Shown piece by piece: positions 24,437 to 27,467 of a DNA stretch of 32,071 bases (positions are counted from its first letter, which is position 1; every line of letters starts with the position of its first letter). This DNA comes from a virus, in IMG/VR virus record IMGVR_UViG_3300048930_000187, positions 1 through 32,071 of that record, one strand, 5' to 3'. The notes under the pieces are model-generated. The model had not been told where the DNA came from and searched no databases. It was given only the letters and a program-made list of their open reading frames with translations. The translations under genes were made by a program, and so were the position numbers.

Positions 24437-24955
24437 TTAGTCGGTTGCACCAAGTTTTTTAGCCTTAAAAAAGCTCCTAGACTGAGCAATTTCAGTATGA
24501 TATTTCCCAGTGCTTAGAAAATAGTTCAAATATCCCTCATATTTTTCCTTTAAGACACCGCTTGAGCCTTGGATAAGACTCTGACAGGCTGAAATAAACT
24601 CTCTGCGCTCTTCTGCGGTCACTTCGCCACTTACCCGTCCACAATACCGCTCATAAAATAAAGACCTCTGAGCCTCTTGTGAGGGCTTAAAAGGGATATA
24701 GGCTTGAGTCTTGGGCTTAAGTGATGATCTTAACTGAACCTCTTTTATGATGTTTGACACCGCTGGAGCTGATTTAAACTTAAACCGATGGTCTTTAAAA
24801 GCCTGTAAAAGCTCCTCTTTGGTTATTCCCTTTGGAATATCTTCAGCCAGAGCAGTTGAGTATTCTTTGATATTCTCTGGTACACTTTCGCCTATTGCTG
24901 TAAAGTGTATTCCTAGTTGTTCAAAAACTATCTGTTGTCTTTCGGTGTCAGTCAT
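24437..24955 (-). CDS. Replication-region protein, unknown
   Basis: A 172-residue, largely helical protein (MTDTERQQIVFEQLGIHF, then ITKEELLQAFKDHRF and FKPSQEAQRSLFYERYCG). It overlaps the replication initiator-like gene by four bases. Two-gene pairs of an initiator and a helicase-loading partner are common in phages lacking polymerase and helicase, so this may be a loader or partner. It lacks Walker motifs, so a DnaC-like ATPase is excluded. Confidence 0.55.
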   Translation of the reverse strand: MTDTERQQIVFEQLGIHFTAIGESVPENIKEYSTALAEDIPKGITKEELLQAFKDHRFKFKSAPAVSNIIKEVQLRSSLKPKTQAYIPFKPSQEAQRSLFYERYCGRVSGEVTAEERREFISACQSLIQGSSGVLKEKYEGYLNYFLSTGKYHTEIAQSRSFFKAKKLGATD

Positions 24956-25704
24956 TCTGTTATTTCCTTTTGTCCAAAAAGTTCTTCATGCATCTTCAGG
25001 TACTCAGCAGTTGAGATGGTGCCCGCTTTCTGATTCGGTGATCTGTACGGTATGATTGCATCCTCCCAAGCCTCTTGGTTCAGGTATGTGGAGCCGTGCT
25101 TTCTAAACTTCACATCTGGAGTTGACCGCACATAATCAACAACAACTGATAGGCATTTCTCTCTTTGATCTTCAGATAGCTTTTGCCAAAGCTTGAGAGC
25201 TGTTTTTTTATTCCCTATTCTACCATAAGCAGACCACCAATTTTCAAAATTTTCAATTTGCAAATTATCCTTAACCTTATCCATATCCAAATCCTTAACC
25301 TTATCTTTATCCTTTTCCTTATCCTGTGCCCCTGAACAGGGGCTGTTTAGGGGCTGTTTAGGGGCTAATAAATTATACTTTTTGAGTTGAGAAATAACTC
25401 CTTTATGAGCGTTGTTCTCTGGATTTAATTCTGCATAATCAGAAACCTTGTATTGAAAATGAATAAAAGATGGAATAAATATTTTATCCTTGCTAATTGT
25501 TTCAAATTGTTCGGATAAATCATTTAAATCTGATTCGGTTATTTCGTCACCTATCATAAATGACATTAGTCCATAATCAATATCTAAAATCCCTGCGTGG
25601 TCACAATTGTCCACTAAAAAGCGAAATAAACATTTGATTTTAGGTTTTGCAGTTCTGAACCAAGATTTTTTCCAAAGTTCTGTATCTGTGAATCTTTTAG
25701 CCAT
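24952..25704 (-). CDS. Replication initiator / replisome organiser-like protein
   Basis: A 250-residue protein. The N-terminus (MAKRFTDTELWKKSWFR, then KCLFRFLVDNCDHAGILDIDYG) has a winged-helix pattern typical of phage replication-organiser proteins. A charged linker (KEKDKDKVKDLDMDKVKD) follows at about 128-147. The C-terminus (FENWWSAYGRIGNKKTALKLW) resembles a DnaD/DnaB2-like or related helical domain, followed by TYLNQEAWEDAI. The gene contains candidate iterons at 25339-25366. It overlaps the HNH gene by eight bases and the next gene by four. Confidence 0.72.
   Translation of the reverse strand: MAKRFTDTELWKKSWFRTAKPKIKCLFRFLVDNCDHAGILDIDYGLMSFMIGDEITESDLNDLSEQFETISKDKIFIPSFIHFQYKVSDYAELNPENNAHKGVISQLKKYNLLAPKQPLNSPCSGAQDKEKDKDKVKDLDMDKVKDNLQIENFENWWSAYGRIGNKKTALKLWQKLSEDQREKCLSVVVDYVRSTPDVKFRKHGSTYLNQEAWEDAIIPYRSPNQKAGTISTAEYLKMHEELFGQKEITE
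25329..25380 (-). other. Candidate replication origin (iterons inside the initiator gene)
   Basis: On the plus strand GGGGCTGTTTA occurs twice in tandem (25339-25349, 25350-25360), followed by a third partial copy GGGGCT at 25361-25366. A palindrome CCCCTG-AA-CAGGGG (25329-25342) precedes them and an AT-rich stretch (25367-25380) follows. The 11-bp unit is not a multiple of three, so the repeat is not conserved in the protein. This resembles lambda, where the origin repeats lie in gene O. Confidence 0.5.
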
Positions 25705-26287
25705 TGTATCCCTTCCCTTTTATCATATTCCAACAAACTCCACAAAAGTATTTGAATGAAATTCTCTCAAAATTAATGTCATCTCTACTAATTGTAATAT
25801 CAATGCATTCTTTTATTTGCTCTGGTGTTAAATATTTTAGAAACGTTTTAATACTAGCTTCAGACTTACCGCCTATTGAAAAAATCATAGTTCCAGATTT
25901 TTCCCCATCTTCTAGCCAATTATTCCACCAATAAATCCCAATCTCTTCTAATGCTTTTTTTTGATCTTCTTTCAACTTTCTAAGTTGTTTATCAAACATT
26001 TTTATTTGCTTTTGACGTTCTATCCTTAACTCAATCTCTTCTTTTAACCTTTCTTGAATTGGTTGAGAAATATTATCTAAGGTCTCATTTGATTTTCCCC
26101 TATTACAATCATAACAAGCCGTAATAAGATTGTCAGAAGAATTGTCACCGCCTTTAGATACAGGCAAAATGTGGTCAACTTCCAAAACTACATTTGGTGT
26201 TGATCTCATACAATATTGACAAGTAAAGTGATCTCTCTTAAAAACCCTAAACCGATTCCTAAGACTCATTGATTTTCTTTTAGCCAT
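25697..26287 (-). CDS. HNH endonuclease-like protein
   Basis: A 196-residue protein. Residues of about 12-70 are an HNH domain with its zinc knuckle: C23-x-x-C26, VDH (37-39) as the first histidine, N53, then C58-x-x-C61 with NRGKS. The helical middle (KQIKMFDKQLRKLKEDQKKAL) and a C-terminal domain (IKTFLKYLTPEQIKECIDI, FKYFCGVCWNMIKGKG) form a second module I know only as a recurrent phage type. It is the first gene of the leftward arm and might act in replication, recombination or as a selfish nuclease. A complex leader RNA precedes it (26294-26385), and its ribosome binding site AAGG lies within that structure. Confidence 0.8.
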   Translation of the reverse strand: MAKRKSMSLRNRFRVFKRDHFTCQYCMRSTPNVVLEVDHILPVSKGGDNSSDNLITACYDCNRGKSNETLDNISQPIQERLKEEIELRIERQKQIKMFDKQLRKLKEDQKKALEEIGIYWWNNWLEDGEKSGTMIFSIGGKSEASIKTFLKYLTPEQIKECIDITISRDDINFERISFKYFCGVCWNMIKGKGYNG

Positions 26288-26293
26288 ATTTTA

Positions 26294-26385
26294 CCAGCCT
26301 TAAAAAGAGAAACCCCTAAGGGCTGGAATCTCAGGGGTCTCTCTATAGTGTCATTGCTGACATAAATTTTCAGGTTTCCAGCCTT
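26294..26385 (-). promoter_or_regulatory. HNH-gene leader: alternative pairing with terminator hairpin
   Basis: Read on the minus strand, segment A (26385-26376, AAGGCTGGAA) comes first. A TGTCA-GCAA-TGACA hairpin (26362-26349) follows. A stem then pairs GAGA and CCCCT strands (around 26341-26333 with 26317-26307) with the loop TTCCAGCCCTT (D, 26328-26318), followed by TTTTT (26306-26302). Last is F (26301-26294, AAGGCTGG), which contains the HNH ribosome binding site. D can pair with A (8 bp contiguous) or with F (6 bp plus two after a bulge). This is the layout of an attenuator or switch with mutually exclusive pairings, possibly a pseudoknot. Confidence 0.6.
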
Positions 26386-26408
26386 CCCTAAATATACATT
26401 ATTTTTTG

Positions 26409-26474
26409 CTAAGTGGAGAAAAATAATCTATCTTTAGAATCAGAGTTATCTGATTGATTATATGCTTTGGTCAT
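26409..26474 (-). CDS. Candidate 21-residue leader peptide
   Basis: A short frame from ATG 26474 to TAG 26409 with an excellent ribosome binding site (AAAGGAG at 26486-26480). The product starts MTKAYNQSD and ends RLFFST. Inside it is a perfect hairpin (AATCAGA-TAAC-TCTGATT). It ends 23 bases before the paired segment A of the HNH leader, so ribosome position could influence folding. It is short and could be chance. Confidence 0.4.
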   Translation of the reverse strand: MTKAYNQSDNSDSKDRLFFST

Positions 26475-26495
26475 AATGACTCCTTTTATTAAAAG

Positions 26496-26524
26496 ACACT
26501 CTTTTGCCGAAGGGTGTTTTTTTT
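26496..26524 (+). terminator. Intrinsic terminator just upstream of a promoter
   Basis: On the plus strand ACACTCTT (26496-26503) pairs with AAGGGTGT (26510-26517) with a 6-base loop, followed by a run of T to 26524. TTGACA of the next promoter begins two bases later. It would stop rightward transcripts from 26290-26495, or may shield the promoter. It is less convincing on the minus strand, which lacks a long T-run. Confidence 0.65.
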
Positions 26525-26525
26525 G

Positions 26526-26554
26526 TTGACAAACGGTTACTAATAACATATTTT
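26526..26554 (+). promoter_or_regulatory. Promoter of the rightward arm
   Basis: TTGACA (26526-26531), 17-base spacer, TATTTT (26549-26554), then TCACTAACAAGGAGAACG just before the ATG at 26582. GTTACTAATAAC inside the spacer is an inverted repeat and a possible operator. This unit is closely alike to 29241 and 24402. Confidence 0.75.
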
Positions 26555-26970: not shown

Positions 26971-27467
26971 GTTATAAAATATTGAACCTATAAGCGTGTC
27001 TCGGTGGCAACAGATACAAGTGGGATGAGTTGAGAGATGATCTAGAAGTAACTGCGGTAGAATTAGACCCAGAACTTGCAAGAATGTACCAGGAGCGATT
27101 TCCAAATGATATTGTAATTGTGGCAGATGCACACCAATATTTATTAGACCATTACAAAGAATTTGATTTTATTTGGAGTTCACCTCCTTTTCCTACGCAC
27201 AGCAGGATACAAACAAGTTTTAAAAACAGAGAAACCTGGAAGCCTAAATATCCAGATATGAAACTATATGAAGAAATAATATTTTTGCGTCATTTTTTTG
27301 AAGGCAAATACTGTATTGAAAACGTAATTCCGTATAATGTTGGCGGATATAGAGATGTATTAAGAAATCTAGTAGACTATGAAGCTGGCAAAACCATTCT
27401 TCAAACTGCTTTAGGAATGGTTCCCGACTCCGCACAAGCTGATTTGTTTTCAGATGACCTATACTAA
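26967..27467 (+). pseudogene. Decayed DNA (cytosine-5) methyltransferase
   Basis: Read from ATG 26967 the frame gives MSYKILNL, then TAA (26991-26993), then ACLGGNRYKW and onward to 27467. The family has Y-A-C/G at this place, so TAT became TAA. Downstream are VTAVELDPELARMYQERFPND, DAHQYLLDHYKEFDFIW and SSPPFPTHSR. Functional members have PPCP here, the catalytic cysteine. F75 is encoded TTT, one base from TGT. After CIENVIPY the frame jumps to GGYRDVLRNLVDYEAGKT, missing a stretch I would expect between, an internal deletion. Length is 166 codons against about 200-250 in the family. A later start (27030) would omit the SAM-binding N-terminus. Confidence 0.8.

Follow-up and report, generated by a model that had tools for sequence, protein, structure and literature searches.

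Type III toxin-antitoxin loci such as ToxIN comprise a promoter, a pseudoknot RNA, a terminator, and a nuclease gene. In phages T4 and RB69, the 5' leader of gene 32 contains a pseudoknot that serves as an autogenous translational operator and is bound by the gene's own product (PMC535899). In satellite phage P4, the CI RNA pairs with upstream and downstream sites in the leader of the replication operon, which results in termination (PMC4825925). For the candidate FTHFS motif, a pseudoknot between the loop of a terminator hairpin and the RNA preceding it was proposed, which would prevent termination (PMC11109978), and the HMP-PP (thiS) riboswitch harbors a terminator with an embedded pseudoknot (PMC6478431). 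No pseudoknot leader associated with an HNH gene was found in the open-access literature.

The locus described here lies on the minus strand of the window, i.e. the whole 32,071-nt stretch of viral DNA that was analyzed, an IMG/VR record. Its positions 26390-26288 read TAGGGAAGGCTGGAAACCTGAAAATTTATGTCAGCAATGACACTATAGAGAGACCCCTGAGATTCCAGCCCTTAGGGGTTTCTCTTTTTAAGGCTGGTAAAAT and are followed by the ATG of an HNH gene. On balance, this leader probably is a promoter-proximal pseudoknot over an intrinsic terminator that would attenuate a phage HNH-replication-initiator operon. The elements of the locus are as follows.

26409-26474, minus strand: 21-codon frame MTKAYNQSDNSDSKDRLFFST with AAAAGGAG, read from the sequence; a role is unsupported
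26391-26420, minus strand: weak candidate promoter TTCTCC-18-TATATT (p 0.48 in the window alone; significant for the family)
26376-26383, minus strand: 5' strand of helix P1, GGCTGGAA, inside AAGGCTGGAA (26385-26376); 8 perfect bp with the terminator loop
26345-26375, minus strand: linker L1, 31 nt, read from the sequence
26362-26349, minus strand: TGTCA-GCAA-TGACA hairpin within L1, present in the predicted fold
26330-26344, minus strand: 5' arm of the terminator stem P2, AGAGAGACCCCTGAG, from hairpin scoring
26321-26328, minus strand: P1', TTCCAGCC, within the 9-nt terminator loop and adjoining the 3' arm of P2, from pairing and shuffle tests
26306-26320, minus strand: 3' arm of P2, CTTAGGGGTTTCTCT (hairpin -24.6 kcal/mol, z -5.8)
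26302-26305, minus strand: remaining U-tract TTTT 3' of the stem, read from the sequence
26294-26301, minus strand: third copy, AAGGCTGG, with the likely HNH Shine-Dalgarno sequence AAGG, in the position of P4 seqC (6 bp with the loop, p 0.008)
25697-26287, minus strand: HNH endonuclease, 196 aa, of a family ending ..YFCGxCWxxIK (PF01844, 1.6e-13; PHROG 14314; alignment)
24952-25704, minus strand: replication initiation protein, overlapping the HNH stop codon (PHROG 270, 4.3e-11)

An earlier sequence-only reading had named two copies of one octamer, a loop complementary to both, a GCAA hairpin, and a 21-codon frame, and all of these were found at the places given. The octamer AAGGCTGG has exactly two copies in the whole window (26385-26378 and 26301-26294), and TTCCAGCCCTT (26328-26318) lies in the loop and the top of the terminator hairpin. 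The hairpin itself was confirmed, but not with the short GAGA/CCCCT stem assigned to it: the stem comprises 15 bp (AGAGAGACCCCTGAG/CTTAGGGGTTTCTCT, 26344-26306) and is followed by TTTTTA. At -24.6 kcal/mol (z -5.8 relative to shuffled sequences), the hairpin is stronger than any other T-tailed one in the 32 kb. As in an attenuator, a GC-containing hairpin and a U-tract are thus present before the first gene. The loop was also confirmed to be complementary to either copy, to different extents. Upstream, P1 (GGCTGGAA/TTCCAGCC) has 8 perfect bp with a stacking energy of -17.4 kcal/mol, whereas the downstream copy, at the HNH start and ribosome-binding site, offers GGCTGG for 6 bp. By chance, the window P1 was equaled in about 1% of dinucleotide and 0.3% of mononucleotide shuffles of the upstream stretch, and the pairing of loop and downstream copy in 0.8% of shuffles of the downstream spacer.

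Both pairings lie clear of the terminator arms, and P1' lies in the loop directly beside the 3' arm of P2. As no bases of the terminator stem are used, the fold of the window is a crossing (pseudoknot) arrangement. The classical switch by alternative pairing that had been proposed was not upheld, because nothing in the sequence makes the pairings and the stem mutually exclusive; any competition must therefore be kinetic or steric. The stop codon of the 21-codon frame is 25 nt upstream of P1, and no single codon is repeated in a run. The frame proposed as a leader peptide exists, but it is not part of the conserved layout, as judged by eye in the homologues. On the opposite strand, a terminator (AAAAGACACTCTTT/GAAGGGTGTTTTTT, 26491-26522, plus strand) stands directly before a promoter TTGACA-17-TATTTT (26526-26554) and would terminate transcription running antisense to the leader; RsaH was matched weakly at this terminator (E 0.14), below threshold.

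Searches for known families or relatives gave no assignment. In Rfam, the window and 20 homologous loci had no match at the gathering score, and sub-threshold matches at relaxed thresholds occurred at chance level only. A single-sequence covariance model run over 95 sources retrieved itself and weak matches only, one of which (27227-27314) lies inside an open reading frame. An exact scan of viral contigs for the triple motif gave eight matches, none of them leader-like, and no relatives of the leader region at the DNA level were detected among phage records. RNA families are searched for by conserved sequence or by covariation among sequences that can be aligned. The leader keeps only topology and gene context, which is why it was missed by Rfam and by single-sequence covariance models.

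Among 37 elements, no 6- to 8-mers were shared beyond the level of shuffles, and it was deduced that an aptamer-like core is lacking. This result bears on the idea of a metabolite riboswitch with a terminator-embedded aptamer; a riboswitch had also been named in the sequence-only reading. The layout does resemble the thiS/HMP-PP riboswitch (PMC6478431), but aptamers are conserved in sequence, a conserved core is missing here, and no metabolic gene is present. A riboswitch is thus extremely improbable.

The leader sequence of the window was found in only one other contig, identical in that region, and no diverged close relative exists in which covariation of this sequence could show. HNH homologues were therefore taken as evidence. 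The sample comprised 207 non-identical HNH loci forming 162 clusters at 70% protein identity; homologues were the best 80 per query, so that the sample is smaller than the whole family, and their start codons were assigned by homology. In the first set, inspected by eye, unrelated upstream sequences displayed the same layout: a hairpin beside the HNH start has a loop whose 3' part can pair with an upstream strand. Examples are TAGGTATGAATTATGTT/GACATAATTCATACCTA and TGCTTATGATGAATACA/TGTATTTATCATAAGCA, found before two different HNH genes.

For a test specific to P1, T-tailed hairpins no more than 45 nt from the HNH start were ranked by energy, blind to P1; the strongest one of each locus was taken, and the pairing of its loop with the preceding 110 nt was scored against dinucleotide shuffles of that stretch. 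A hairpin was available in 43 loci; p was about 0.01 or less in 11 of them and below 0.05 in 15 (Fisher 8e-14). After clustering at 70%, 36 loci remained (Fisher 1.6e-14). As a control, 290 other terminators of the same loci were scored, and no loop-to-upstream enrichment was seen (Fisher 0.18). P1' was displaced toward the 3' side of the loop, with a median of 7 nt to the P2 arm versus 13 nt on the other side (p 0.0007).

The window could, alternatively, contain an ordinary intrinsic terminator with fortuitous complementarity to its flanks. Its P1 has just 8 bp, it is one sequence, and 32 kb were searched for oddities. Even so, the window alone reaches p of about 0.01, and many diverged homologues share topology and place whereas other terminators do not, which renders coincidence quite improbable.

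A crossing fold, defined by z < -2 without a T-tail being required, was then counted in full-length HNH loci with enough upstream DNA. It occurred in 36 of 45 clusters with a gap of 100-300 nt before HNH versus 6 of 73 in which the gap was smaller (p 9e-16). Ten phage genomes including the window were scanned over most of their length; z < -4 was reached by five of the eight scored HNH leaders versus 1 of 296 other intergenic strands. The helix search was ungapped and used stacking energies only, so that its values are approximate. P2 strength also enters the z-scores, and the evidence therefore comes mainly from the P1-specific test. As base-pairing potential, two crossing helices of an H-type pseudoknot were thus found, recurring in homologues. 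Whether homologues lose the complementarity without compensation had been named as the point on which the proposal would fall, and this came out in favor of structure; the suggested pseudoknot or attenuator gained support from homologous loci keeping the crossing topology in unrelated sequences. From the sequences compared, the leader is best read as a structure-conserved, sequence-free element. The knot looks like a widespread, apparently undescribed phage leader RNA, present in about 80% of the related loci with room for it.

A U-rich tail (5 of 7) followed P2 in at least 19 of 50 parsed elements. This is an underestimate, as some parses take another crossing pair and differ from the pair of the P1 test; the parse of the window consists of stem and third copy. 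With the tail absent from many parsed elements, termination is not universal and not the whole story, and where it is missing the knot may act on translation or stability. Five loci (L097, L104, L090, L031, and L037) have very long P2 stems (21-31 bp) near the HNH start and no clear U-tract; their leaders may act on translation rather than termination. In L269 and L040, the P1 strand GAGCAAG, located about 100 nt upstream of HNH, lies in a hairpin loop of its own (AACATCGAT...ATCGATGTT), so that it would meet the terminator loop in a loop-loop kiss. The sole non-HNH intergenic region with z < -4 in the scanned genomes was L356 1780-2411 (-5.7).

A two-box promoter of the sigma-70 or Bacteroidota type was searched for before P1. 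Such a promoter was present at p < 0.05 in 10 of 30 loci (Fisher 9e-6) and in 0 of 30 controls (Fisher 1.0), and in the family the -10 box often lies a few bases upstream of P1. From the candidate promoter of the window, transcription would begin at P1 or shortly before it. For transcripts ending just after P1', the minimum-energy fold contained P1 in 24 of 26 cases, window included; when the 3' arm of P2 was added, the best nested fold went over to P2 in most. From these truncated transcripts we deduced that helix P1 should form before P2.

Non-Watson-Crick positions in the helices were 50 G-U and 5 A-C, counted with a search that credits G-U, and the excess suggests RNA. It is relevant to the possibility that the element acts as DNA, its inverted repeats being binding or nicking sites for HNH or the initiator at an origin. 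The element does head a replication module and has inverted and direct repeats. Against this stand the predominance of G-U among non-Watson-Crick positions, suggestive only because the search favors it, and a T-tail and promoter orientation that fit RNA, and we regard a DNA-level element as very improbable.

The HNH family consists of proteins of about 175-196 residues that carry the HNH domain at the N terminus and end with a conserved YFCGICW motif; they are encoded in viral contigs and genomes. Within the family, residues 76-196 (25697-26062, minus strand) form a long helix and a conserved F..S.K.FL...YFCGICW.KIK domain. A fold search with the HNH model matched only the HNH nuclease part; nothing was retrieved for the C-terminal half, and no RNA-binding fold was seen. 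HNH was followed by a replication initiator or initiator-like gene in most cases examined, the calls at metagenomic loci being made by reading translations and not by family search. Neither a gap before HNH nor the RNA is present in lambda-type phages and phage-plasmids that have a cII-HNH-initiator operon; this distribution fits an operon leader rather than an obligatory cofactor. Elsewhere in the window, a Mom-like DNA modification protein is encoded at 1966-2727 on the plus strand (Pfam Mom, 4.8e-37; PHROG 1384), and a short methyltransferase-like frame at 27030-27467 on the plus strand is about 75% identical at the DNA level to Flavobacterium phage methyltransferase genes.

The RNA might also be a stable partner of the HNH protein in a ribonucleoprotein, with the terminator setting the ratio of RNA to protein as in type III toxin-antitoxin systems. 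This would agree with its own promoter tendency, with knotted 5' and 3' ends, and with a nuclease gene directly downstream that has no evident second promoter. HNH genes inside operons, however, mostly lack the RNA (crossing fold in 6 of 73), the RNA sequence is not conserved, the terminator tail is often missing, and the HNH model has no recognized RNA-binding fold. A partner RNA is therefore considered unlikely.

The reading of an attenuating operon leader is based on helices observed as base-pairing potential, on their recurrence in homologues and their location, on the promoter tendency, and on the gene context. Transcription would start at or just before P1. Once the polymerase has passed the loop, P1 is predicted to pair with P1' first; the 3' arm of P2 would then emerge, and the terminator stem would form inside the P1 fold, after which both helices may coexist as a pseudoknot or P1 may give way. 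P1 appears placed to influence terminator formation, and the sharing of RNA between P1 and P2 may set the frequency of read-through into HNH and the initiator. Given its terminator, HNH of the window needs read-through unless another promoter exists. The same loop of the window could also cover the HNH ribosome-binding site. A regulator, if any, would most simply be a phage replication protein acting on its own leader, and because only topology is conserved, it should recognize structure and not a sequence core. The short P1 of the window (8 bp), its weak promoter, the lack of a diverged close relative displaying covariation, and the many family elements with no U-rich tail count against attenuation.

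More tentatively, a topology-defined class of phage leaders can be envisaged in which the first nucleotides of the transcript are tied into the terminator loop. The change from P1 to P2 during transcription, either by itself or under the influence of an accumulating short RNA or a replication protein, might possibly serve as an intrinsic timer or dose sensor by which the HNH-initiator operon is turned off. In phage replication operons outside the lambda-type repressor layout, the leader would be a general site of control at the RNA level; it would also allow study of how a terminator functions with its loop already engaged.

The third copy raises the alternative of an antisense mechanism of the P4 CI or P1 c4 kind. 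The loop of the terminated RNA (seqB) would act in trans by pairing with seqA, the P1 strand of new transcripts, and with seqC, the third copy beside the HNH start, and the operon would be turned off as copies accumulate. The window repeats the seqA-seqB-seqC order of satellite phage P4 (PMC4825925), and the family has an excess of third copies at the HNH start (Fisher 3e-4), with clear cases in the window, L278 (two copies), L244, L285, and L204 and a weaker one in L302. A third copy is absent from most loci, though, and the short RNA carries its own P1, so that, in contrast to processed CI RNA, its loop is already taken up. For most of these phages lysogenic immunity is improbable, as a tyrosine integrase was present in only 1 of 26 records, many of which are fragments. 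Antisense control in trans is thus rather unlikely. In L278, both GAATGGGT copies lie between terminator and HNH start (no more than 40 nt before the start) and are complementary to the terminator loop.

Compared with the described systems, the locus shows both likenesses and differences. Membership among type III toxin-antitoxin loci was rejected: ToxIN has tandem RNA repeats and a ToxN-fold endoribonuclease, whereas no tandem repeat of the leader element was found and the gene is an HNH gene. The HMP-PP riboswitch differs in being ligand-binding, in its sequence-conserved loop, and in a competing stem that disrupts the terminator. The FTHFS motif, unlike the HNH leader, precedes a bacterial one-carbon gene and is proposed to respond to a metabolite. 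As in P4, the loop of the window, and that of about five other loci, is complementary to one upstream and one downstream site; unlike in P4, the third copy is missing in most homologues, the terminator is the hairpin itself, and the phages mostly lack an integrase. The gene 32 leader likewise belongs to a phage replication gene, has a 5' pseudoknot before the ribosome-binding site, and has diverged in sequence across phages (PMC535899). The HNH leader differs from it in controlling, by our reading, HNH plus initiator, in its longer helices, which often lie over an intrinsic terminator, and in having no known binding protein. By analogy, the gene 32 pseudoknot is the best precedent for a phage leader that has diverged in sequence and kept its structure.
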